22,020 nucleotides of DNA, taken from positions 1 through 22,020 of IMG/VR virus record IMGVR_UViG_3300028840_008162. One strand, given 5' to 3'. How positions within the stretch are numbered: position 1 is the stretch's first letter; each line of letters opens with the position of its first letter. Positions 4,530-19,848 of the stretch are shown piece after piece. The DNA comes from a virus. A program made the position numbers and the translations under genes. Under the pieces are notes generated by a model. It worked only from the letters and a program-made list of their open reading frames with translations, did no database searches and was not told the DNA's origin.

Positions 4530-4882
4530 TGGATAACCTTGAATCGAGAAGTAAAAGGTTATCCAAAGAAATAAGAGAGTTTATTGGGATTTACGATAAT
4601 GTTTTCAGAGAGGCTAATAAGGAGTTTCAGCAGGAAAGAGTCGCTGCTGGGAATATGGATGGCCTTGAGGATTTCTACAGACTCGTTAATACCCTGAAAC
4701 GAAACAGGGATATTCTTGGGTCTCTAGAACGTGGTATACGTGGAATGAGACCCCTAAACAAGTTCCGGTTTATCGAGGAGGAGGTTCCTCAGTCGGAAGA
4801 AGAGGCTAAAGATCAGCCCGCTGAGATGTATGAATATGAACCGGCTGAAGCAGAGGAACCGGAGGAAGAAATAGATGGCTAA
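4508..4882 (+). CDS. Hypothetical helical protein with acidic tail, coupled to portal
   Basis: A 124-residue protein, largely helical (residues 1-80, with many charged residues) and ending in a very acidic Glu/Pro-rich tail (about residues 88-124). The start at ATG 4508 lies within the previous gene, and its last bases overlap the portal start by 8 bases, so expression is probably coupled to the portal. An acidic disordered tail is seen in some phage assembly factors and DNA-mimic proteins, but no specific homology is evident. Function unknown. Confidence 0.75.
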   Translation: MADLNKMMDNLESRSKRLSKEIREFIGIYDNVFREANKEFQQERVAAGNMDGLEDFYRLVNTLKRNRDILGSLERGIRGMRPLNKFRFIEEEVPQSEEEAKDQPAEMYEYEPAEAEEPEEEIDG

Positions 4883-7800
4883 GAGAATAAGAGTTGTAAC
4901 ATCAAGCAGCACTCCTGAGAAGAAGTTTTCCCCTCAGAAAAGAGTCGTATCCGCTTCTGATAATCCACGGCCATCAATGAAGATGACTAAAAACGAGATT
5001 ATGGCCCGTAGAAATAGAAGGATTGCTACAACGACTACTTTTGGGTCTTATGGAATGAGAACGGCTGGAGATGTTCTCGATAGCGGGACAAGCCAGTTCT
5101 ATTCTCCTCAGCTTAGTACTGACTTCCTCGAAAAGCCACAGAACCTTCGTGAGAGAAGAGCCTTTTACCGGTTCTTTTATAATACAAATGAAATAGTAGG
5201 TCAAGCAGTAGATATTCATTCTACACTTCCTTTGTCTAAGCTCAGACTGGTTCCACCAAAGGGTAGTAATAAGCATCAGAATCAATATGTCTTCAAATTT
5301 TTTGAAGACATGTGCGAGAGAATGAAGCTTTTCAAGACTCTTATTGAGGTAACCCATGAGTATAATTTGATGGGGAATTGCGTATCGAGGGATTCCTTAT
5401 TAAGGACTCCACAAGGCTACATGAGGGCGGATCAGCTTTCGATTGGTGATGAAGTCCTTACTAATAAGGGCAGATTTAAGAAAATACTTAAGAGGTCTAT
5501 CAGACCATCCGAAGTTGTTTTGAACATACGATGTTGGAAGGATTTTAGAAATTTAAGAATAACAGATGAACATCCTATAGAAGTTTTAAGAGATGAAGGC
5601 TTTGAATTTATTCAGGCTAGTGAACTTACACTCTCTGATTATGTTCGAATCACGTGGCCGAGTGAAATTAAGGATATAGATAAAGTAACGCTTGAATTCC
5701 CTAATAATTATGTAAAACTAGATAGGGGATATGAATCCAACGTTGAAATAGTCCGTTTAAGAAGTGATAAAGCCAACAGCGCAAGAAAATCCTTGCTGCT
5801 GTGGCTAGGTTCATTAGGTGAACCTGCTATTAAAACACGAAAGGAATTAGCCAATCAGTTCAATGTATCGGAATCAACCCTTAATAATGTCATAAATACT
5901 TTAACAGTGGAATTAGATCAGAAATTTCATGAGAGACTAGGAGCTAAAGGATGGCAAAAGGGGTCCCAGATAAGATGGTTACCCATTGATTTGAGTAATA
6001 TTGAAATCAGGGATTCATATATCATAAAAAGGTCGAAAATACTCAGCGCTATTGATGAGCTTAAAATTGATAACAATTTCGCTTATCTGGCAGGATTTTG
6101 GCTAGGAGACGGGACTCTAGGAAGAGATTCTCAAAGAAATAATTGGGGAAGGGGTCTGTGGCAGATATCCTTCTCAGAAAAGGAAACTGTTAATATTGAT
6201 AGGATTAAAAAAATACTTATAAGCATTTTTGGAGAAGATTCTATAAAAAGTTGGAATAGTAATGGAAATACATATATAAAAGTTAATTCGAATCCGGCAT
6301 TTATAGAATGGTGGTCAGATAATTTTGGAGAAACTACTTTTGAGAGAAACCTGAAAAGAGTTCCCCAATGGTTGATAGACCTTCCTGTTGATAAGCTGAA
6401 GTATTTCCTTGCAGGTTTGATAGACTCTGATGGATGTGTATCAGTTAGTGGCGATAAGAGGCTCTCGATAGTAGATATAAAGACGGCATCGCGGAATATA
6501 ATGGATGCTGTAAGAGATATATGTCTAAAATGCGGAGTTATAATAAATTACAATAATTCTGTTCCAAGGACTACTAAGCTTCCAAACGGTAATGAGACAA
6601 TTTCTAGCGAGATGTTCATTGTAACGGCAAGTGAAGAAGAGTCTTGCCGAATTCTAACTGATTATTCTAATAAGAAGTTGCCTGAAGATGCAACTTTTAC
6701 CATTATGGATAGATATTGGCAAAGGACTGATGGGGGTCTGGCCTTAAAAATAAAAGAGATTTGTACAGAGGACTATAAAGACCTGGTTTATAATTTTGAG
6801 GTTGAGGAAGACCATACATATCAGGTAAATGGGTTCTCAACTCACAATTGCTTCGTGTTCGCTGAGGAAGATGATTATTCTGATGATTCTTCACCAGAGG
6901 AAAAAGCTCAGAAAAAGGAAGAAGCTAAACAGAGAAGTCAATTCCTGAAGCAAAAGTATGATATCAGTGATAAAGACCCCCTGTTTAAAGGCTGGAAGAA
7001 ACTTATTGTTCTTCCTCCTGACCAGGTAAGGGTTAGAAAGCTACCCCTATCAGATGATGTAGCTATTGAATATGTTCCTGATCCAGAAACGAGAAAATAC
7101 ATAACATCTGAAATGCCCATGTACCCGGATCAGATGCTTGAATCGAGCGGAATAAAGTATGACATTCCTTCAGAAATACGAAATAAGGTCATGCAGAGTG
7201 GCACCATACCACTTGATACCGACCCCTATACAGGGTCACATGTATATCATCTTGCCCGTAAAAAATCTCAATATGAGCCCCTCGGTATTTCTGTCATTGA
7301 GCGGTGCATAAATACCCTTGTTCTGATGGATAAGCTCCGTCAGGCCCAGACCTCTATTGCATCCCGTCATATGACTCCCATGCGTATCGTATGGGCTGAG
7401 GACCTCAGTTCTGACCAAGTCGATGAACTCAGAGAACAGGTCGACCTGGCTCTTGTGGATCCAGACTATAGTATCATAGCTAACTATGAGGTCCACTGGG
7501 AAGAGATGGGATCTAACGGGCGTCTGCTCGATATCGAGGCTGATTATGAGGGGTCCCTGAACAGGCTGTTTGCTGGTCTTGGAGTAACCAGAGAGATTCT
7601 CACCGGAGAGGGAACATACACCGGTAGTAAGATATCTCTGGAGATAATGAATACTCAGTATCTTCTTTATAGGGAAATCCTACAGGATTATGTCGAGAAC
7701 TACCTGTTTAAGCCCATAGCAAAGAAAAAAGGCTTCGTTGAATATGATGAGTATGGCAATGAAGTTGTTCTCTACCCTCGACTGAGTTTCACAAGACTTG

Positions 7801-8231
7801 CAATCAGGGATAACGAAACATTCTTTGATGCGGCCTTCCAGCTTTATCAGAAGGGGTCAGTATCTATAGACCTCATACTCGATATACTCAATATCGACCC
7901 AGAGTCTACCCGTGAAAAGATCGAACATGATATGTTCACGGTTAATGATAATCAGTTCAATGAAGTCCTTAGAAACATCTATACGAATGTTGCGACAGGA
8001 CTCGTTGAGAACACTGATATCGTTCAGAAGCTCGCTAGATATATGGGTTTGAGTATGACAGAACAACCTCAGCCCGCTGAAGGAGCTTCAAGGTTCAGCT
8101 CTGAAAAGAAAGCTGCTCTTCCTGTTCCGACGAATGGAAAAGTCATAAGTAAGGAACATGCTGAAAAACTAACCAGAGTTATCAGTTTCTTATCAAAGAA
8201 TCCTGAAGCTCTCGATAAGGTGTTCAAATAA
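4875..8231 (+). CDS. Portal protein precursor with embedded intein
   Basis: A 1118-residue reading frame starting at ATG 4875 with GGAGGAAG upstream. Residues 169-658 are an intein (separate entry); joining residues 1-168 to 659-1118 gives a 628-residue protein of a size usual for portals of large myoviruses. Features consistent with a portal: a basic N-terminal tail; a segment with RRAFYRFFYNTNEIVGQAVDI; the YNLMGN/CFVFAEED junction, which resembles the conserved 'G-N-x-F-x' region of portals; an acidic insertion; VYHLARKKSQYEPLGISVIE, typical of the portal wing/stem region; and an RLFAGLGVTREILTGEGTY stretch. The portal forms the dodecameric ring at one capsid vertex, binding terminase and the neck. 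Position before the protease, scaffold and capsid genes supports the call. The stop overlaps the next start (TAATG). Confidence 0.88.
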   Translation: MAKRIRVVTSSSTPEKKFSPQKRVVSASDNPRPSMKMTKNEIMARRNRRIATTTTFGSYGMRTAGDVLDSGTSQFYSPQLSTDFLEKPQNLRERRAFYRFFYNTNEIVGQAVDIHSTLPLSKLRLVPPKGSNKHQNQYVFKFFEDMCERMKLFKTLIEVTHEYNLMGNCVSRDSLLRTPQGYMRADQLSIGDEVLTNKGRFKKILKRSIRPSEVVLNIRCWKDFRNLRITDEHPIEVLRDEGFEFIQASELTLSDYVRITWPSEIKDIDKVTLEFPNNYVKLDRGYESNVEIVRLRSDKANSARKSLLLWLGSLGEPAIKTRKELANQFNVSESTLNNVINTLTVELDQKFHERLGAKGWQKGSQIRWLPIDLSNIEIRDSYIIKRSKILSAIDELKIDNNFAYLAGFWLGDGTLGRDSQRNNWGRGLWQISFSEKETVNIDRIKKILISIFGEDSIKSWNSNGNTYIKVNSNPAFIEWWSDNFGETTFERNLKRVPQWLIDLPVDKLKYFLAGLIDSDGCVSVSGDKRLSIVDIKTASRNIMDAVRDICLKCGVIINYNNSVPRTTKLPNGNETISSEMFIVTASEEESCRILTDYSNKKLPEDATFTIMDRYWQRTDGGLALKIKEICTEDYKDLVYNFEVEEDHTYQVNGFSTHNCFVFAEEDDYSDDSSPEEKAQKKEEAKQRSQFLKQKYDISDKDPLFKGWKKLIVLPPDQVRVRKLPLSDDVAIEYVPDPETRKYITSEMPMYPDQMLESSGIKYDIPSEIRNKVMQSGTIPLDTDPYTGSHVYHLARKKSQYEPLGISVIERCINTLVLMDKLRQAQTSIASRHMTPMRIVWAEDLSSDQVDELREQVDLALVDPDYSIIANYEVHWEEMGSNGRLLDIEADYEGSLNRLFAGLGVTREILTGEGTYTGSKISLEIMNTQYLLYREILQDYVENYLFKPIAKKKGFVEYDEYGNEVVLYPRLSFTRLAIRDNETFFDAAFQLYQKGSVSIDLILDILNIDPESTREKIEHDMFTVNDNQFNEVLRNIYTNVATGLVENTDIVQKLARYMGLSMTEQPQPAEGASRFSSEKKAALPVPTNGKVISKEHAEKLTRVISFLSKNPEALDKVFK
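5379..6848 (+). mobile_element. LAGLIDADG intein in the portal gene (490 aa)
   Basis: Splicing block A starts with Cys1 at 5379 (CVSRDSLLRTPQGYM, then LSIGDEVL). Block B is LRITDEHPIEV, with the T-x-x-H pattern. Two LAGLIDADG motifs are intact: YLAGFWLGDGTL (Asp at portal residue 412) and LAGLIDSDG (Asp at 519). Block F is VYNFEVEEDHTYQVNG, and block G ends STHN at 6848 with Cys as the next extein residue. All residues needed for Cys-type protein splicing and for a two-motif homing endonuclease are visible, so both activities are likely. Between the N-terminal splicing part and the first endonuclease motif lies a helix-turn-helix-like segment (TRKELANQFNVSESTLNNVI), perhaps an added DNA-recognition part. 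The intein is visibly more AT-rich than the flanking portal sequence, which suggests later acquisition. Confidence 0.95.
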
Positions 8232-11023: not shown

Positions 11024-13786
11024 ATGGCGATGTTAAAATACGGTAATGCTTCATTAATCCAGCCAAATATATCCGTTGATGGCTGGGTTAATAATTTATA
11101 TAACGTAGCTTGTAGTAACGGTAAGTGCCGCATGAAGACGGCAAAGACCGTACTGGCAAAATATGACCCGAAAAAGTATTATCTGAGCCACTGCACAATC
11201 ATTGCTGCTGTTGACACCGATCTTGCAAACCCGAAAGAAGAAAAGTCTGATTATCTCATTAAGCCTGAATATTCAAAGTTCGTAAATAATAACGGTGATG
11301 CATGGTCTAAGAGGCTCCTCCAAGCTTGTTATAGAACCTTTATTGGTTGTAATAACTATTGTTTTCCTTCTGGTACTCGGGTACTGTTGTCCGACGGGAC
11401 TTATAAAAATATAGAAGAAATTAAAGTTGGGGATACAGTTATAAATAGGAAAGGTGAGATAGGGACTGTAACCAATGTATTTAAGAGGGAATCTTCTGAT
11501 TTAATGGAAGTTAATGGAAAAGGAATTCTATCAAGGTCACTGTTTGTAACCAAAGAACATCCGTTTTGGGTATATAGTGCGCGTAAGAGTTGTCCGAAGA
11601 CTGGTCGACCAAACAGCTTTAATAGGGATAAGGATTTTTATCGTCTAAGCACATGGAAGGGATTCTCGACAGGAGTTCATGAAGGGCATGGAGAATCCTA
11701 TCCCACGGGCATTATTCCTGGATGGAAAAATGCTGAAGATTTAGATGTTAATAGAGATTTTTTAACACACCCAATTTCCCAGGCAGAGCAGTTTAACAAT
11801 GAGGTAAATGCTAATAGAGCTGAGTTGATCGGGTGGTTTTTGGCAGAAGGTTCTTACTCATATACTAATGATTCTTCAGATGAAGAATCAGGCATTACCT
11901 TCAATTTGGGCAACGATGAAAATGATGTAGCTCAGAAATTGTCTCTCCTTCTTATTGAAGAATTCGGAGATAAGCTGAGAATAGATTGCCAACCAAGAAT
12001 ATATGAGACCCAGAGTGGATCCTATAATTTATGTTTAAGTAATAAATATGTAGCTGAATATTTCAAGAAGTGGTGCGGAAAGTATTCATGGGCGAAATAT
12101 ATGCCTGAGGAAGCCATGTGGCTTCCTAAAAAACTTCAGGCAATAATATTGCATAATTGTTTATTTGGTGATGGTACTTCTAAAATTAGTTCTCGTGGAT
12201 ATTGTATAGAGTTAAAATCTAAGAAATTGATACAACAGTTGATGTGGATCTCTTGGAGATTGGGTATACTCCCTAGTTATAAAGAGGTCGGAGTATTGCC
12301 TAGATATACTGATATATCTATTATTGATGGATATGAGGTCTATACCGATCCAATCTCAGGAAAAAGATCCAGACCCGGTTATTCATTGAAATTCACTACA
12401 AGAGATTCAAAGAGACTATGTGATTTTTCAAAATATGATGATGTTAATATCACGGATAAAAGTTCAAATAGATATACCCATTCGTTAAAATGTGATAATA
12501 ATGAATGGATGATATCAAAAATAAAAAAAGTTCAAAGTACTGATGTATCTTGTACGGTCTATAATATAGAAGTCGATAATGATAACTCCTATATAGTTGA
12601 GGGTGTTGCTGTTCATAACTGTGAACATGTCCAGATACCCGAGCTCAGTAAGGGAAAAGTTATTGATGCCGTGCTTCGGGATATCCCAATAGGTAAAGAT
12701 AAAGAAGGTAATGACCTTACCACCTACTATGTTGATATCCTCGTAGCTACTGATAGAAAACATGATGACCTTATTCGTAAGATAGAGGCTAACGAACTCA
12801 ACACCCTGTCGATGGGGTGTACAATATCATATTCAATTTGTTCAAAATGCGGTAATAAAGCCGTAGATGAAACGGAAGCATGCCAGCATGTTCGATATGA
12901 AAAGAATAATCTCTTTTATGATGATAGAGGAGTACAGAGAAAGGTTGCAGAGCTCTGCGGGCATTGGTCGGAGCCAGACAGCGTAAAGTTTGTAGATGCC
13001 TCTTGGGTGAAAACCCCGGCATTTGTCGGAGCGGTCAAAAGAAGTACTATCAGTGTCCCTGATGACATTTCGAAAAAGCTTGAGGCCGCAGAGAAGGTTG
13101 AAGGATATCGTAAGAAAGAGGGCGATTTCCTGAAAGCAGCCCATGTCGTTGCTCAGGATGAAGAAGACACAACGGAAGAGGCACCTGCTGAGGAAACTCC
13201 AGATGACGAAGCCCCCGTTGAAGAAGCTCCTCCTGAAGAGTCCCCCGCTGAAGAAAATCCAGAGTTCAATCTTGATTCCTGGAAAGAGGAAACCAAGAAA
13301 GAGCTCATGGACCAGATCCGTAATGAGATCCTTAAAGAGCTCAGTAATGAAAAAAGGCCGAATGAGCTGGAGACCCTTGACGATACGATAATTAAACCGG
13401 CTTCTGTCTTTAAAAAAGTATGGGGAGCAAAACTATCCTGGGACAGATTCATTACACAGTCCGTAGGTAATATTGATAAGAAATCCTTTGATAAACTCAG
13501 GCATGGAAGTCACATAGTTCTTACTAGCAGTGACCCTACTGTTCTTAAGGATTATGGGTACACAAAAAGGGACTTCCTTGCAGTGCTTTCATTTATTGAT
13601 AGCCATACTACAAACCCTCTGACCTTTAAGATCAAAAAAGCTGTAGCTTCAATGGGCGGAACAGAAAATAAAAGCCCAATTCAAGTCCTTGCGAGAATAG
13701 TAGAGTTAACGGGTGAAAAAATCACTAAGGCACATGGTAAAAAGGTCCTTGTATGGGCCAAGATGTTGGACAGTTTTAATTGCTAA
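11024..13786 (+). CDS. Prohead (head maturation) protease with scaffold-like tail, intein-containing
   Basis: A 920-residue frame; removing the intein (residues 113-532) leaves 500 residues. The protease part includes NNNGDAWSKRLL, then across the splice junction CEHVQIPELSKGKVIDA, in which His535 resembles the catalytic His of the large-phage prohead protease family. LSMGCTIS follows, with Ser596 as the likely nucleophile. Next comes a Cys/His cluster (CSKCG and EACQH) that could bind a metal. After about residue 700 there is an acidic Pro/Glu-rich linker (EEAPAEETPDDEAPVEE), a charged helix (WKEETKKELMDQIRNEIL) and a C-terminal helical domain, suggesting a fused scaffolding or core segment. 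The enzyme would cleave scaffold and capsid precursors inside the prohead. The start at ATG 11024 has only a weak AGGATT site. Confidence 0.8.
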   Translation: MAMLKYGNASLIQPNISVDGWVNNLYNVACSNGKCRMKTAKTVLAKYDPKKYYLSHCTIIAAVDTDLANPKEEKSDYLIKPEYSKFVNNNGDAWSKRLLQACYRTFIGCNNYCFPSGTRVLLSDGTYKNIEEIKVGDTVINRKGEIGTVTNVFKRESSDLMEVNGKGILSRSLFVTKEHPFWVYSARKSCPKTGRPNSFNRDKDFYRLSTWKGFSTGVHEGHGESYPTGIIPGWKNAEDLDVNRDFLTHPISQAEQFNNEVNANRAELIGWFLAEGSYSYTNDSSDEESGITFNLGNDENDVAQKLSLLLIEEFGDKLRIDCQPRIYETQSGSYNLCLSNKYVAEYFKKWCGKYSWAKYMPEEAMWLPKKLQAIILHNCLFGDGTSKISSRGYCIELKSKKLIQQLMWISWRLGILPSYKEVGVLPRYTDISIIDGYEVYTDPISGKRSRPGYSLKFTTRDSKRLCDFSKYDDVNITDKSSNRYTHSLKCDNNEWMISKIKKVQSTDVSCTVYNIEVDNDNSYIVEGVAVHNCEHVQIPELSKGKVIDAVLRDIPIGKDKEGNDLTTYYVDILVATDRKHDDLIRKIEANELNTLSMGCTISYSICSKCGNKAVDETEACQHVRYEKNNLFYDDRGVQRKVAELCGHWSEPDSVKFVDASWVKTPAFVGAVKRSTISVPDDISKKLEAAEKVEGYRKKEGDFLKAAHVVAQDEEDTTEEAPAEETPDDEAPVEEAPPEESPAEENPEFNLDSWKEETKKELMDQIRNEILKELSNEKRPNELETLDDTIIKPASVFKKVWGAKLSWDRFITQSVGNIDKKSFDKLRHGSHIVLTSSDPTVLKDYGYTKRDFLAVLSFIDSHTTNPLTFKIKKAVASMGGTENKSPIQVLARIVELTGEKITKAHGKKVLVWAKMLDSFNC
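11360..12619 (+). mobile_element. LAGLIDADG intein in the prohead protease gene (420 aa)
   Basis: Cys1 is at 11360 (CFPSGTRVLLSDGTYKNIEE, then VGDTVI: block A). Block B is LFVTKEHPFWV with T-x-x-H. Endonuclease motifs are LIGWFLAEGSYSY (acidic residue Glu275 of the precursor) and CLFGDGTSKI (Asp383). Block F is VYNIEVDNDNSYIVEG, and block G ends AVHN at 12619, followed by extein Cys533. The Cys1, His, Asn and Cys+1 set is complete. It is AT-rich relative to the flanking gene and is not closely similar to the portal intein beyond the shared motifs, so the two appear to be independent acquisitions. Confidence 0.95.
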
Positions 13787-13866: not shown

Positions 13867-14706
13867 ATGAGGAAGAGATTGAGCTGGGATGAAGAGAAGG
13901 TCGCCGAACTGGAGAAGAAGGCTGACCCGTATACCATGAATCAGACTCACGAGAACCCCCCGGTACAGAAGTACCAGACGGGTAGCCCGAGTGCTTGGGG
14001 TGAGGATCCGAATATGGCCACCCCGTGGAAGACCGAGGGTAGGACTGAGACCGGTCATCCCGCTCCTGCAAGTAAGGCTGCTCATGAGGCTGTTCTGGCT
14101 GCTCGTAAGCTTGAGGACAAGGCCATCAAGTGCATCACGATTGCACAGCGCATGCTGCCCAATGCCAATGATGAGATCATTGAGGCCCAGGCTACCGACC
14201 TGATGTATCTGCCCGAGCGTTCGGTCCTTGCCACTCTTCAGCGTCAGGCTGAGCTTGCTCAGATCCTTTCCGGTAAGAAGTGTGACACTGAGGAAGGCGC
14301 AGATGTAGAGGCCAAGAAGGCCCCGAAGGCCCCGAAGATGGATGACGGAGGCTCAGCTGAGGAAGAGATGACAGGCGCAGATGTGGAGGCCAAGAAGGCC
14401 CCGAAGATGGATGACGAAGGCGCAGATGTAGAGGCCAAGAAGGCCCCGAAGATGGATGAAGAAGGCGCAGATGTGGAGGCCAAGAAGGCCCCGAAGATGG
14501 ATGAAGAAGGCGCAGATGTAGAGGATGAGGCACCTGATGGTAAGGAAGCCGGTGACCTCCTTGATCAGATTTTTGCTCAGGAAGTTACGGCTTCTGAAAA
14601 GACTGGTGCAAAGAAGTTGAGTGGTCTTGTGAAGCAGGCTTCGGAGAGTGATTCCCTGGCTGGTCTATGGGATACCGCTCCGGACGTTTCCAAGATCTTT
14701 CGTTAA
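13867..14706 (+). CDS. Scaffold or prohead-core-like protein with 15-residue repeats
   Basis: A 279-residue, highly charged protein with AGGAGGT just before ATG 13867. Residues 1-65 are polar and likely disordered. Residues about 67-137 are helical (ASKAAHEAVLAARKLEDKAI onward). Residues about 144-219 contain tandem GADVEAKKAPKMDxE repeats of 15 residues. The C terminus has a helical segment and a SLAGLWDTAPDVSKIF end. High charge, low complexity, location just before the decoration and capsid genes, and codon use typical of highly expressed genes all fit an internal scaffolding or core protein, possibly a substrate of the upstream protease. No enzyme motif is seen. A minor virion protein is the main alternative. 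Confidence 0.65.
   Translation: MRKRLSWDEEKVAELEKKADPYTMNQTHENPPVQKYQTGSPSAWGEDPNMATPWKTEGRTETGHPAPASKAAHEAVLAARKLEDKAIKCITIAQRMLPNANDEIIEAQATDLMYLPERSVLATLQRQAELAQILSGKKCDTEEGADVEAKKAPKAPKMDDGGSAEEEMTGADVEAKKAPKMDDEGADVEAKKAPKMDEEGADVEAKKAPKMDEEGADVEDEAPDGKEAGDLLDQIFAQEVTASEKTGAKKLSGLVKQASESDSLAGLWDTAPDVSKIFR
14296..14523 (+). repeat. 45-nt tandem repeat inside scaffold-like gene
   Basis: Units starting GGCGCAGATGT lie at 14296, 14374, 14419, 14464 and 14509. The three full copies at 14374-14508 are exactly 45 nt each and encode GADVEAKKAPKMD(D/E)E. The first copy carries an insertion, and the last is truncated after GADVE. All remain in frame. Confidence 0.95.
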
Positions 14707-15319: not shown

Positions 15320-16192
15320 ATGGCTGAAATTAGCAATGATGTAAAACAGCAGATTATCGGCGAGCATCTCAAGACCGCCGCTGGACGTGCCAAGCTGGCA
15401 GCGTCCATGATTCAGCCTCTGCGTCTGAGGAGAGATTACACCTCCGTTGGTCGTAAGACCTTCCTGGTGGAGCAGCTCCCTGACGGTGCGTTGCCGATCT
15501 ATGACAAGGATCCCAACGTTACGGCGTATGTCGTCGGCGAGGAAGGTCAGAATATTCTGGCCATCACGAAGCCCCGCCGTGTTATTTTCCCCCTGTTCGA
15601 GATTGCCTCGAACCCGGAGATCCCGCTCACTCAGATCAAAGAGCGCCGGTTCGACCTGATCGAACGTGCTCAGGACCTGGGTAAGGCTGAGATTCAGGCC
15701 GAGGAAGATACCCGTGTCTTCGAGGTTCTGGATGCGGTCGCAACGAGTGGTTTTGACAACATTGGTGCCACCAATGCTGACGTGAACGCCGTTGCTCCTC
15801 TGACGCCTCCCGACCTGGCCGATGCGTTCGCTCGTATCGAGCGTCATGACCTGCGTGTTGCGAGAGTCTTCGCGAATGCCCTCGACTATTCCGACATCCG
15901 TAAGTGGGGACGTGACGTCCTGGACATCGAGTCCCAGGCTACGTTGCTCCGCACCGGTCTGATGGCGACAGTCTGGGGTGCTCAGATCATAGTGTCTCGT
16001 AGGGTGCCTGCCGGGTACATCTACGTGTGCTGTGAGCCCGAGTTCTTCGGCCGTATCCCAGTTCGTACGGAACTTACCGTTCTTTCTGCTGACGATCCTA
16101 AGAACCGTACCATCGGGTTCTCGATTTTCGAGAATCTGGGTATCGGCTGCCACAACCCGCTGGGTCTGTGCAGGGTGGTCATTCAGAGGTAA
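15320..16192 (+). CDS. Major capsid protein, HK97-fold (putative)
   Basis: A 290-residue protein with AGAGGAGGTG before ATG 15320. Its order after portal, protease, scaffold-like and decoration-like genes, its strong ribosome binding site, its GC-richer codon use and the terminator after it all fit the most abundant head protein. The N-terminal region is helical (SNDVKQQIIGEHLKTAAGRA). The middle has a long helix with ERRFDLIERAQDLGKAEIQ and EDTRVFEVLDAVA, as in the spine helix of HK97-fold capsids. The C-terminal part has RVFANALDYSDIRKWG, ATVWGAQIIVSRRVPAGYIY and a final GFSIFENLGIGCHNPLGL segment, typical of capsid A-domain ends. No separate long delta domain is obvious, so processing at the N terminus cannot be placed. 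Confidence 0.8.
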   Translation: MAEISNDVKQQIIGEHLKTAAGRAKLAASMIQPLRLRRDYTSVGRKTFLVEQLPDGALPIYDKDPNVTAYVVGEEGQNILAITKPRRVIFPLFEIASNPEIPLTQIKERRFDLIERAQDLGKAEIQAEEDTRVFEVLDAVATSGFDNIGATNADVNAVAPLTPPDLADAFARIERHDLRVARVFANALDYSDIRKWGRDVLDIESQATLLRTGLMATVWGAQIIVSRRVPAGYIYVCCEPEFFGRIPVRTELTVLSADDPKNRTIGFSIFENLGIGCHNPLGLCRVVIQR

Positions 16193-16216
16193 CTAACTCT
16201 TAACAGAGTAGTTATA

Positions 16217-16251
16217 GGGGTTATGAGAATCTTCTCATAACCCCTTTTTTT
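16217..16251 (+). terminator. Intrinsic terminator after the major capsid gene
   Basis: GGGGTTATGAGA (16217-16228) pairs perfectly with TCTCATAACCCC (16233-16244) around a 4-base loop, and is followed by seven T residues. This is a strong Rho-independent terminator 24 bases after the capsid stop. It separates the structural operon from the AT-rich operon that follows. Confidence 0.95.
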
Positions 16252-16314
16252 ATTCTTCCCCTACACTATAAAATTAGTTATATTATTAATAACAGTGCAT
16301 TGAGGAGATTTCTA
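16252..16314 (+). promoter_or_regulatory. Likely promoter region for the homing/ParB operon
   Basis: The AT-rich stretch with TATATTATTAATAACA (16280-16295) follows the terminator and precedes the TGAGGAG ribosome binding site (16301-16307) of the gene at 16315. A promoter is expected here because the upstream operon ends in a terminator. Part of it (ATTATTAATAACA) is similar to the motif at 13808, but the match needs a gap. Confidence 0.35.
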
Positions 16315-17958
16315 ATGCCCTCTGTTTGGATTGAAGAAAAAGATTTTGATAAAATTTTACATAACAAATATGGTGTTTATTCTAAATCAGAACTCGAACA
16401 GCAGATTAGAGAGGGCAATCTTACTATAAATGAACTTGGTAAGATTTATTCATTATCTGAAGTTCAAATAGTGCATGTATTACGCTTATTAAACCTTACG
16501 CACCGTAATATATTAAGTGACACAAGAATTTCATCCTTTGAGATAACCCCCTCAATACATCAGGTAATCTTAGGAACACTTTTAGGAGATGCTTACATGA
16601 AGGAAAAGAATTCTTTCATGTTAGGTCATAGCATCCATCAAATGGATTATTTCTATACGGTTGCAGAAAAATTAGGGTGTTCAGTATCAACGATATACTA
16701 TAAGAGGGCCACATTAGGAAAGTCTCTGTCTTTATGGACAAATAGACATCCATGTTTTGAGACTTATTTCGAGAGATTCTATCTTAATGGTAAGAAAAAG
16801 AAGCGATTTTCTGAAAAATCAGTTTATGACTTGGAACCTGAGGGCCTAGCTTATTGGTATATGGATGATGGGAAATTTGATGAATATGGCCTAGTTTTAT
16901 GTACGGGGGGTTTTTCAAGAGAAGAGAATTGGATACTTATCGATTTATTGAGAAATAAGTTTTCTGTTGAAGCTACAGAGCAATACCATGATAGAAAAAA
17001 GGATTACCGATATCTCTATATTAAGGCTGAGAGCAGGGGTCATTTCATATCTCTGATAGAACCATATGTTATACCCTCTATGAGGTATAAATTAGAAGGA
17101 AAACCTTATCCAAAATTATCAAACGAGATAGAAATAGCTATTAGGCATATGACTTTCTGTGAAAAAATAGATAAACCGGTTAGGTTTTCTGGTAATTCTG
17201 AACTTAAGAAGATGATAGTTTATAATGTTCCCGATAAAAAAATAGAATACATGAATTCTATAAGGGAGTCAATAAAAGAGAGAAAAATTGTTTCACATAC
17301 GAATGTTAGAAAAGAGCCTTCTTTTGAAGAATTAAAGGCTTTGTTTAAAGACGGGTTAACGGACCAGCAAATAGCCTCACGCTATGGTTTTGGTAGGAAT
17401 AGAATATCTAAAATAAGACGTTCCTTAAATATACCTAGAAAATCAGTTAGATGTAGTTCTGACAGGGTTTGTTTTCCATGCATGAAAGTAAAACTTGTGC
17501 CGTCGGAGAAAGTTGTATCTAATGAATATAATCCGAATAAAGTAGCCCATACCGAGATGTCGCTATTAATACACAGTATAGAAGAAGATGGACTCACTCA
17601 GCCCGTAGTTGTTTTTTATGATTCAAGTATTGATAAATATATAGTTATTGATGGCTTTCATAGATTTACTGTCTTAAAGGACCACTTTAAAGTGGATAAA
17701 ATACCCGTTGTAGTTCTTGAGAAGAAACTTGAAGATAGAATGGCTTCTACTATACGTCATAATAGGGCACGGGGTAAGCATCAAGTGGACCTTATGGGGA
17801 TTCTGGTTAATGACCTGTCTGCTAAAGGTTGGTTAGATGAGCAGATAGCTCAGCACCTTGGTATGGAGGGGGAGGAGCTCTTAAGATTAAGACAACAAGT
17901 TGGATGTGCTAAATATTTAGCAGGAAGTGAATATTCCTCTTCATGGGAAATTAAATGA
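16315..17958 (+). CDS. LAGLIDADG homing endonuclease fused to IbrB/ParB-like domain
   Basis: 547 residues from ATG 16315, chosen because TGAGGAG lies 7 bases upstream; a TTG at 16300 overlaps that site and is unlikely. Residues 24-62 look like a helix-turn-helix. Residues about 80-280 are a LAGLIDADG endonuclease with ILGTLLGDAY (85-94) and LAYWYMDDGKFD (178-189). Residues 336-375 form a second helix-turn-helix-like segment. Cys380, Cys386 and Cys389 form a small cluster. Residues 394-547 match the ParB-like IbrB family: VPSEKVVSNEYNPN, then IDGFHRF (445-451), RMASTIRHNRARGKH and an HLGMEGEELLRL end. No Cys1 block A or His-Asn-Cys end surrounds the endonuclease, so this is a fusion, not an intein. 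The stop overlaps the next start (ATGA). The activity of each half is inferred from motifs. Confidence 0.9.
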   Translation: MPSVWIEEKDFDKILHNKYGVYSKSELEQQIREGNLTINELGKIYSLSEVQIVHVLRLLNLTHRNILSDTRISSFEITPSIHQVILGTLLGDAYMKEKNSFMLGHSIHQMDYFYTVAEKLGCSVSTIYYKRATLGKSLSLWTNRHPCFETYFERFYLNGKKKKRFSEKSVYDLEPEGLAYWYMDDGKFDEYGLVLCTGGFSREENWILIDLLRNKFSVEATEQYHDRKKDYRYLYIKAESRGHFISLIEPYVIPSMRYKLEGKPYPKLSNEIEIAIRHMTFCEKIDKPVRFSGNSELKKMIVYNVPDKKIEYMNSIRESIKERKIVSHTNVRKEPSFEELKALFKDGLTDQQIASRYGFGRNRISKIRRSLNIPRKSVRCSSDRVCFPCMKVKLVPSEKVVSNEYNPNKVAHTEMSLLIHSIEEDGLTQPVVVFYDSSIDKYIVIDGFHRFTVLKDHFKVDKIPVVVLEKKLEDRMASTIRHNRARGKHQVDLMGILVNDLSAKGWLDEQIAQHLGMEGEELLRLRQQVGCAKYLAGSEYSSSWEIK

Positions 17959-18779
17959 ATGGCTCTGTCCTTTTCACTAACAGCGTAGATTTTGAGGTCA
18001 AAAAAATATTATCAGTCTCATTGTGGTCAAAAAGAAGATTCTACATATACGGAAGTTGCCCATCTTTAGATGAGCTTAAGCAGCGCCTTCCAGATTTTGT
18101 TTTCGTAGATTTGAGAGATCTATTAGATCCACAGTTTATAAAAATATTTATCGACAACTCAGATTCAGATTTTTTTGTGATAAAGTGCCTTAGATTTAGC
18201 GATATAATGCATAGGGGCATTGAGAAGTTACAGTTATCATTAGGGTATAAATTTGTTGTAGATAATCATCCTTTTATGGGAAAATCAGAAATATACTGGT
18301 CGTATTTTTTATGGAGCTTCTTCGATAGGTCATTGTTGGGTTATCCCCATTGCTATTCTTTTATCACGGCTCTTAAGAACAATCCTTTTAATATCATGGA
18401 CATAGCTTCAAGGGTTATATCTAAAACTGATACTGATATCCGTGAAATTTTTGATAAAATAGAGGTAAAGAGAATTCAGGTAGATATAGAAACAAAAAAT
18501 GATTATCAGAAACTCAAGACAAAATTATTTGAGGAAGAAAACAGTCCTTTAGTAATATCCAAGAAACTAAGAAGATTTGTAATTCAAAAATATCCTGAGC
18601 TGAAAGAGGGCTTTGACCTTCTAAGGTTAGGTAATGTTTTTGATCAATTCCAAAAGGGTATCAGGACTATAATCGTGTCGGACCTTAAAGTAGATGAATA
18701 TTTGGAAAATAGATTCTGGGAATACATTAATAATGCCAATATTTTTATGAGAACTATATATGACGGAAAAACTGAATAG
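17955..18779 (+). CDS. Unknown protein between ParB-like and PP-loop genes
   Basis: A 274-residue AT-rich gene starting in an ATGA overlap with the ParB-like gene and overlapping the next gene by 20 bases, so all three are co-translated. The N-terminal half is alpha/beta in character, with alternating hydrophobic strands (RRFYIYG, FVFVDLRDLL, DFFVIKCL) and a Trp/Tyr/Phe-rich centre (SEIYWSYFLWSFFDRSLLGY). The C-terminal half is helical and charged. No Walker A, PP-loop, zinc or nuclease motif is visible, and I do not recognise a family. Its position implies that it works with the flanking ParB-like and PAPS-reductase-like proteins. Confidence 0.85.
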   Translation: MNGSVLFTNSVDFEVKKILSVSLWSKRRFYIYGSCPSLDELKQRLPDFVFVDLRDLLDPQFIKIFIDNSDSDFFVIKCLRFSDIMHRGIEKLQLSLGYKFVVDNHPFMGKSEIYWSYFLWSFFDRSLLGYPHCYSFITALKNNPFNIMDIASRVISKTDTDIREIFDKIEVKRIQVDIETKNDYQKLKTKLFEEENSPLVISKKLRRFVIQKYPELKEGFDLLRLGNVFDQFQKGIRTIIVSDLKVDEYLENRFWEYINNANIFMRTIYDGKTE

Positions 18780-19848
18780 AATCTATTTATCAGATAATGT
18801 GCTATTTTCTGCTCAGAAAAGGATTGCTCTTATTTTTAATGAGTTTGAGAAAATTGTTGTATCCATAAGTAGTGGTAAAGATAGTACAGTTCTTTTCTGG
18901 CTGGCTATGGAGGAAGCAATAAAAAGGAAGAGGAAGATAAAGGTATTTTTCTTAGATCAGGAGGCTGAATATGAGTCCAGTATAAAACTAATAGAATTTA
19001 TGATGACCCAATCGTTAGTTGACCCCATGTGGTTTCAAATACCCCTAAGATTAACCAACGCTACTTCATATAGTAATAGTGTATTCTGTTGTTGGGAAGA
19101 AAATAAGGAGTGGTTGCGTTCAAAGCATCCTTTAGCAATACATTCACTCAAAGAAAAATACCCAGACAGGTTCTATGGCTTTTTTAATTGGGTAGAGAAG
19201 AAGAATTCCGATACAGCTTTTTTAATTGGGCTTAGGGCTGAAGAGAGCATCAATCGGTTAAGAGCTGTAATGTTAAATCCCGGTTGGAACTCAATCAGAT
19301 GGAGTACTAAAACTAAAGGGAGTAATACTTTTCGATTTTACCCGATATATGATTGGGTAGTTAGTGATATCTGGAAATACATTTATGAAAATAATCTACC
19401 TTATAATTCTGTTTATGATAGAATGTATCATTCCAATAAAAACTATTATAAAACGATGAGGGTAAGTAATCTTATACATGAAAAGAGCTTTAGATGCTTA
19501 GGGGACTTACAGATTTACGAACCGGTGATGTTCGATAAATTGGTAAAGAGATTACCCGGTATTCATGTGGCTTCTATTTATTCCAAAGAAAAGACTGTTT
19601 TCAACACCGATGTATTACCTAAGAGTTTTAAGTCATGGAAGGATTATAAGGATTACCTTTTAAGAACGACTCCATTAGAATATAAAAATAGGTTTGATAA
19701 GAGATTCTCAAAACAGCCTGATAATGAGAATATGGCCAGAAAACAGGTTAGACAGATTTTGTTAAATGATTATGAGAATAATTTAAATATAAAAACAGTG
19801 AAAAAAAATAAGATTGAATTGTATGAAAAATGGTGGGATAAATTTTAA
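18760..19848 (+). CDS. PAPS-reductase-family PP-loop protein, IbrA-like
   Basis: A 362-residue protein starting at ATG 18760 inside the previous gene. Residues 32-46 (IVVSISSGKDSTVLF) hold the PP-loop ATP-binding signature with SSGKDS in place of SGGKDS. LDQEAEY (65-71), GLRAEES (157-163), PIYDWVVSDIWKYI (195-208) and NLPYNSVYD (212-220) are all typical of the PAPS reductase / adenylyl-transferring PP-loop family. Cys110-Cys111 and Cys246 are the only prominent Cys positions; the ECGLH-type Cys motif of assimilatory PAPS reductases is absent. Together with the ParB-like partner this matches the IbrA/IbrB pair of E. coli and prophages. A sulfur-transfer or adenylation role is possible, but the substrate is unknown. 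Confidence 0.88.
   Translation: MTEKLNRIYLSDNVLFSAQKRIALIFNEFEKIVVSISSGKDSTVLFWLAMEEAIKRKRKIKVFFLDQEAEYESSIKLIEFMMTQSLVDPMWFQIPLRLTNATSYSNSVFCCWEENKEWLRSKHPLAIHSLKEKYPDRFYGFFNWVEKKNSDTAFLIGLRAEESINRLRAVMLNPGWNSIRWSTKTKGSNTFRFYPIYDWVVSDIWKYIYENNLPYNSVYDRMYHSNKNYYKTMRVSNLIHEKSFRCLGDLQIYEPVMFDKLVKRLPGIHVASIYSKEKTVFNTDVLPKSFKSWKDYKDYLLRTTPLEYKNRFDKRFSKQPDNENMARKQVRQILLNDYENNLNIKTVKKNKIELYEKWWDKF

Follow-up and report, generated by a model that had tools for sequence, protein, structure and literature searches.

We analyzed a 22,020-base virus record (IMG/VR virus record IMGVR_UViG_3300028840_008162, positions 1 to 22,020; the window) that carries a three-gene cassette just 3' of the major capsid protein gene. 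The first gene joins a LAGLIDADG homing endonuclease gene (HEG) to a ParB-like IbrB domain, the last encodes an IbrA-like PP-loop enzyme, and the gene between them (the middle gene) is predicted to encode a degenerate SNF2-type ATPase. The locus contains the following features:

15320..16192, + strand: major capsid protein gene, which forms the conserved left edge of the hotspot described below (phrog_2522 "major head protein," 2e-53)
16216..16245, + strand: intrinsic terminator 3' of the capsid gene (13 pairs plus T-run; fold z = -6.9)
16315..17958, + strand: HEG-IbrB fusion open reading frame (ORF), 547 aa (ORF reading, Pfam, PHROGs)
16393..16503, + strand: N-terminal helix-turn-helix (HTH), HTH_ParB-like, part of the HEG (Pfam HTH_ParB, 1e-4, residues 27-63, barely above the cut-off)
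16561..17034, + strand: LAGLIDADG_2 homing endonuclease domain (PF03161, E = 5e-28, residues 83-240)
17341..17424, + strand: second HTH, end of the HEG part (HTH_23, 4e-7, residues 343-370; kept in separate HEGs)
17482..17958, + strand: IbrB (ParB/Srx-type) domain (ParB_N, 2e-7, residues 391-474; phrog_2159 "ParB-like," 4e-57)
17955..18779, + strand: middle gene, 274 aa (ORF reading; degenerate SNF2-type ATPase by structure and profile)
18760..19848, + strand: IbrA gene, 362 aa (PF01507, 1e-17; PF11922, 2e-10; phrog_2302 "PAPS reductase," 1e-89)

An initial annotation made from the sequence alone had described three overlapping, AT-rich genes behind a strong terminator, with LAGLIDADG, ParB-like and PP-loop domains, two HTH-like segments and an IbrB/IbrA pairing of the partners. 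All of these observations were confirmed. The ORFs overlap by 4 bases (HEG-IbrB and middle gene) and 20 bases (middle gene and IbrA), and a ribosome-binding site (GAGGAG, 16302-16307) lies ahead of the ATG at 16315. The G+C content was 0.32 to 0.37 in 1-kb bins over the three genes versus 0.55 to 0.57 over the capsid end, and DNA similarity between related pairs stopped approximately 50 to 75 bp past the capsid stop codon, about at the terminator; the mobile, foreign-looking character of the cassette was likewise supported. The LAGLIDADG_2 match scored 98.6 bits against a cut-off of 25, and the acidic residues D92, D184 and D185 of its two motifs (LLGTLLGDAYM and LAYWYMDDG) were invariant across 7 aligned HEG-A proteins. 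The partners also exceeded the curated cut-offs, with ParB_N at 31.3 bits (cut-off, 26.3) for the protein near IbrA and, for IbrA itself, PAPS_reduct at 64.7 bits (cut-off, 22.5) and DUF3440 at 41.5 bits (cut-off, 25).

The HEG appears to be of the free-standing type, with no Hint/intein domain in the HEG-carrying protein (P0001) by Pfam. A group I intron was considered and rejected, since an Rfam search of the window gave no match. The HEG and IbrB share one frame in the window and in L009/L122, and they are separate in other loci: in L003/L100 the HEG (381 aa) ends and IbrB (170 aa) begins 3 bases further on, and in L082/L086/L087 the two genes overlap by 4 bases. Thus, the fusion is recurrent but optional. 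The N-terminal HTH was also present in the separate HEG of L003. Within the fused frame, the ATG at 17482 is a candidate internal start of IbrB, with the context FPCM as in separate IbrB genes, and IbrB may begin there as an alternative to the fused protein.

Immediately 3' of the capsid gene lies a hotspot at which HEGs and DNA modifiers are repeatedly paired. We fetched 80 capsid relatives and read their 3' sides; the counts refer to 51 non-redundant loci, each followed by at least 2.3 kb of sequence, that were scored with profiles built in this analysis and picked by conserved peptide patterns, which biases the sample to close relatives. A LAGLIDADG HEG was found in 38 loci, and a modification module (SPPY methyltransferase, Mom, or IbrB/middle protein/IbrA) also was found in 38; both were present in 34 loci, the HEG alone in 4, the module alone in 4, and neither in 9 (Fisher P = 1e-4). 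The ORFs following the capsid gene were often 600 to 1100 aa long, with LAGLIDADG_2 followed by an N6/N4-type DNA methyltransferase, Mom or IbrB. In-frame HEG fusions occurred in 25 of the 51 loci (22 with a methyltransferase, 2 with Mom and 2 with IbrB; one locus has two). Pfam identified LAGLIDADG_2-methyltransferase ORFs in L085, L099, L121, L124, L126 and L136, and Mom followed LAGLIDADG_2 in L090 and L118; some other ORFs were classed as methyltransferases from their resemblance to Pfam-positive ones. Most fused partners belonged to DNA-modification families (N6_N4_Mtase, Mom and phrog_1384 "Mom-like DNA modification protein"), and the SPP[YF] motif was kept in 28 of 31 methyltransferase-like copies.

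The concentration of HEGs at this site also was evident in 20 whole records (2.94 Mb), where 14 of 21 LAGLIDADG_2 matches lay within approximately 4 kb 3' of the capsid gene compared with 0.6 expected (binomial P of ~1e-17, with positions assigned by hand). The HEG clade of the window was found at the capsid-3' site only and occurred with Ibr genes in 9 of 11 loci, compared with 1 of the 19 loci that carry HEGs of other clades (P = 3.5e-5; classified by hand). By the same profiles, 15 distant HEG loci on other contigs (L173-L187) had no modification partner. The published LR745208 genome carries HEG-HEG-methyltransferase at the capsid-3' site, and phage G and Tunturi_5 gave no match there. In the open-access literature, we found neither this hotspot nor fusions of HEGs to modifiers reported for huge phages, which is weak evidence of novelty. 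Some hotspot loci encode large proteins with RRXRR and/or DUF7487 (L103, 9311-11188; L111, 2683-4758; L143, 6921-8756), perhaps another mobile-nuclease family.

Pairs of related loci differed by whole cassettes. L102 and L103 are 96% identical to approximately 70 bp past the capsid stop, carry different HEG cassettes, and then are 99% identical. In L143/L145, an 833-bp HEG insertion beside Mom is missing in L144, with flanks 93 to 96% identical; this present/absent pair is clean and lies at approximately +3213 past the capsid stop. The HEG tree, built quickly and with long branches in places, required no fewer than 19 changes of partner. On it, Mom and IbrB had each become linked to two distinct HEG lineages, and the methyltransferase label required at least 7 changes (gains or losses) if the starred branches are trusted.

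The middle protein, listed as unrecognised in the initial annotation, indeed gave no match to Pfam, PHROG, NCBIfam or PADLOC models; its fold, in contrast, could be assigned. AlphaFold, run on a 26-sequence alignment, gave a predicted local distance difference test score (pLDDT) of 92.6, and the top Foldseek matches in the PDB were SWI2/SNF2-type ATPases (1z63, E = 8.5e-6, probability 1.00). The first 33 PDB matches were all SNF2-type or related superfamily 2 (SF2) ATPases, and the top named matches among viral models were mostly SNF2 or DEXD helicases. Template modeling scores were modest (0.35 to 0.62 on the query), as expected if the two lobes of the protein sit differently; the architecture comprises a RecA1-like core and the start of RecA2. 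A first-round profile was built from 19 genes that immediately precede IbrA. It matched the counterpart gene at almost every locus of one IbrA clade and, at ~1e-11, SNF2 helicases (the phage helicase family is phrog_62) whose genes lie a short distance upstream at some of these loci. When iterated, the profile drifted into full SNF2 helicases, a drift that reflects real distant homology and with which the structure agrees. Unlike SNF2/SWI2 ATPases, whose fold it shares, the middle protein lacks Walker A (missing in 26 of 26 homologues), DExx, LTGTP and QxxRxxR, with the motif II/III positions altered, and has a newly conserved Asp (D103 in the window protein, at least 90%); the neighboring true SNF2 helicases retain Walker A, DES and motif VI. 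On this modeled structure, the middle protein is best described as a degenerate, ATPase-dead SNF2-type ATPase. In the records of L122 (G007:C1:24245-26164) and L136 (G002:C1:190480-192438), SNF2 helicase genes are split by a LAGLIDADG_2 insert between their N- and C-terminal stretches.

The middle gene was a near-invariant neighbor of one IbrA clade, in line with the proposal of the initial annotation that the three genes form a system. With 63 IbrA relatives fetched from IMG/VR, an automatic rule placed it directly 5' of IbrA in 34 of 37 rows of this clade (the 3 exceptions also had a match upstream) and in none of the 36 rows that fall outside the clade. The label was strongly clustered on the IbrA tree (4 changes versus 24 in shuffles). 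The rare linkage that would have refuted the proposed system was thus not what the survey showed. Both orders, IbrB-middle-IbrA and middle-IbrA-IbrB, occurred, and the linkage of the middle gene to IbrA therefore survives rearrangement. A tblastn search with five representatives of the middle family against 50,697 phage records gave no match, nor did a plasmid search with the window protein. The sole match on a genome contig, L007 (Thermoproteus), was a short DNHPFMG stretch and was dropped as chance. Two other candidate homologues, gp102 of mycobacteriophage Gaia and the gene preceding IbrB in one Flavobacterium phage, were set aside, as the middle-gene profile did not match them.

Known IbrA/IbrB pairs (phrog_2302/phrog_2159; Escherichia coli YbdN/YbdM; Flavobacterium phages 1H, 6H and FCL-2) resemble the window in that a PAPS_reduct plus DUF3440 protein adjoins a ParB_N protein with DGFHR, and the window proteins are 44 to 45% (IbrA) and 49 to 51% (IbrB) identical to those of the Flavobacterium phages. 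Unlike the known pairs, the window has IbrB fused to a HEG, and unlike the tested Flavobacterium and mycobacteriophage loci (none by profile), it has a pseudo-SNF2 gene directly 5' of IbrA. In 69 IbrB sequences, D446, G447, H449, R450, N403, N406, P407 and N408 were conserved at ~100%, as were T479, N483, G487, H489, E521 and R524. IbrB retains the DGxHR and NxYNPN-type residues, as in ParB/Srx-fold nucleoside triphosphate (NTP)-binding proteins, and gave weak PDB matches to SbnI and ParB. In 74 IbrA sequences, the PP-loop (SSGKDS) columns G39, K40, D41 and S42 were 97 to 99% conserved. A separate IbrA gene, in L091 (9448-11817), carries its own intein (LAGLIDADG_3), inserted near the PP-loop.

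The initial annotation had suggested a sulfur-type modification of DNA or RNA, and this part of its interpretation was not upheld. By profile, the nearest solved relatives of IbrA were flavin adenine dinucleotide (FAD) synthase and CysD, followed by 3'-phosphoadenosine 5'-phosphosulfate (PAPS) reductases; Foldseek of the AlphaFold model (pLDDT, 87.5) placed FAD synthase first with PAPS reductases close behind, and TilS/MesJ and TtuA also were among the structural matches. As FAD synthase and CysD both transfer adenosine monophosphate (AMP), the comparison favours AMP transfer over sulfur redox. Cysteines are required for the chemistry of PAPS reductases and of DndC. No conserved cysteine was found in the 74 IbrA sequences (best Cys column, 38%), and sulfur chemistry was dropped as the first choice for this reason. 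IbrA also scored far below the cut-off for CysH, the PAPS/APS (adenosine 5'-phosphosulfate) reductase (PRK02090, 42.4 bits versus 154).

We consider it somewhat probable that the cassette is a HEG-linked DNA-modification module, with the LAGLIDADG HEG and IbrB/pseudo-SNF2/IbrA lodged behind the capsid terminator. This reading is based on the pairing of HEGs with DNA modifiers at the site and on the DNA-type fold of two of the three proteins. In the HEG clade of the window, IbrB/middle protein/IbrA sits in the place of the modifier, so guilt by association points to DNA modification, with DNA as the putative substrate, and the hotspot shared with methyltransferases and Mom gives this idea evidence beyond the initial annotation. 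The interpretation in that annotation was partly supported. The HEG would cut co-infecting, cassette-less relatives near the site, and repair would copy the cassette across, as HEG biology, the one HEG present/absent pair and the one cassette swap suggest. Judging from their folds, IbrB and the ATPase-dead SNF2 protein may hold or present DNA; IbrA, using its PP-loop and ATP, would adenylate the target, probably a DNA base, and another nucleophile would displace AMP, making sulfur dispensable. Since the site is shared with methyltransferases and Mom, the resulting mark might protect phage DNA against host enzymes, and perhaps against cleavage by the HEG as well. The joining of other HEGs to other DNA-marking enzymes at this site in related viruses suggests that cutter and marker move together and may also act together. 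A functional coupling of HEG and modifier may exist, and the genetic linkage of endonuclease and modifier recalls restriction-modification, with IbrAB as the putative modifier. ParBc domains are frequently fused to DNA methyltransferases (PMC12783734), and the targeting system proposed in the initial annotation, combining cutting with ParB-like binding, is possible.

A more ambitious version, which we regard as unlikely, is a self-protecting homing system in which a LAGLIDADG HEG and an interchangeable modifier (methyltransferase, Mom or IbrB/pseudo-SNF2/IbrA) act as a phage restriction-modification gene drive. The mark would hide the phage's own DNA from the cutter, unmarked co-infecting relatives would be cut and converted, and the IbrB/pseudo-SNF2/IbrA complex would make an ATP-dependent base modification of a new kind.

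Several observations weigh against a DNA-modification module. The HEG-module co-occurrence P values were computed ignoring shared ancestry; the HEG-IbrB fusion occurs in two lineages only and the genes are separate in two others, so that HEG and IbrB are separable; the fused ORFs are known from assembled IMG/VR contigs alone; and no empty-site relative of the window's own IbrB cassette was present among the compared pairs. Selfish HEGs may simply lie beside modification genes with no functional tie. If so, the HEG would occupy a tolerant site behind the capsid terminator, and IbrAB/middle protein, the methyltransferases and Mom would be ordinary, uncoupled anti-restriction genes that benefit the phage itself. 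This hitch-hiking is possible but less probable than the module. It fits the retention of Mom in L144 without the HEG of L143/L145, the methyltransferases without a HEG in L117, L137 and L139, and the 19 or more partner changes on the HEG tree; in-frame fusion in 25 of 51 loci exceeds what a neutral neighborhood needs, and the 15 distant HEGs elsewhere lack such partners. Other jumbo phages also carry HEG-cargo pairs (a moraphage HEG accompanied by CcdA/HicB antitoxin genes, PMC12619734; a weaponised HEG, PMC12908238), which likewise combine a mobile endonuclease and a second gene as a module, but here the cargo consists of DNA-modification enzymes, often in one frame and at one fixed capsid-adjacent site. 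Exactly as tentative is the idea that the hotspot is a general cargo site and that IbrAB/middle protein regulates transcription or modifies either a metabolite or RNA (a tRNA base, as do PP-loop enzymes such as TilS). The structural matches to TilS/MesJ and TtuA agree with it. E. coli IbrA and IbrB are known as regulators of eib genes. They have been called co-activators of prophage gene expression (PMC4490671), IbrAB and YbdNM are annotated as bacterial regulators (PMC4490671, PMC9068703), and the open-access papers searched gave no biochemistry tying IbrA/IbrB to DNA modification. The pseudo-SNF2 protein and the ParB-fold partner indicate DNA instead, and the other recurrent fused cargo at the hotspot modifies DNA.

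A Dnd/Ssp-like phosphorothioate modification, the sulfur chemistry suggested earlier, is very unlikely. The Dnd system also pairs a ParB-superfamily protein (DndB) with a PP-loop enzyme (DndC), and DndH has an inactive SNF2-type domain (PMC10853773); IbrA weakly matched the DndC models of PADLOC (2e-10) and TIGR03183 (2e-7). However, the TIGR03183 score was 30.6 bits against a cut-off of 290.4, IbrA has no conserved counterpart to cysteines such as the DndC dyad (PMC12839542), its top structural matches are adenylyltransferases, and no dndA-, dndD- or dndE-like gene was recognised among the selected genes scanned in the 22-kb window. Least probable of all is that an assembly error produced the fused HEG-IbrB frame or that this frame is a pseudogene in decay. 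The separate HEG and IbrB genes of L003/L100 and L082 would fit such an origin, but the same 552-codon ORF is present in the near-identical record L002, L009/L122 carry an independent fusion with ~53% identity, and the motif residues of both LAGLIDADG and IbrB are intact.

The window itself most likely is a fragment of a huge, phage-G-like phage, since its capsid protein shares 77% identity with that of LR745208 (a 485-kb uncultured phage), 50% with that of Tunturi_5 (308 kb) and 39% with gp27 of Bacillus phage G (497 kb), and relatives lie on IMG/VR contigs that reach 470 kb. A second, near-identical IMG/VR record of the window is L002. The left end (1-2655) is open and GC-rich (0.61), with long ORFs running on either strand, unlike the rest. 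The portal protein gene contains an intein with LAGLIDADG_3/Hom_end domains (4875-8231; Pfam Intein_splicing, Hom_end), and a head-maturation-protease-like gene (11024-13786) has a second, intein-like insert (Hint plus weak LAGLIDADG_3); the L003 homologue lacks this insert and aligns with the sequence flanking it. The gene at 13867-14706 encodes 279 aa in the window versus 316 aa in L002, and its L003 homologue has many DEKDAAKK repeats.

Mom is GNAT (GCN5-related N-acetyltransferase)-type in its chemistry and, unlike IbrA, not a PP-loop enzyme. Mom of phage Mu and Mom-like proteins (phrog_1384) occupy the same hotspot and are fused to HEGs of two clades. IbrA/IbrB-like pairs are widespread in phages, and this locus supplies a defined third partner, the predicted dead SNF2 protein; the context shared with methyltransferases and Mom makes DNA modification by IbrA/IbrB directly testable. 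If cutter and modifier cooperate, the HEGs of huge phages would be more than selfish, serving as compact cut-and-mark systems in phage-phage fights. Either way, the capsid-adjacent hotspot is a place to seek new DNA modifications.

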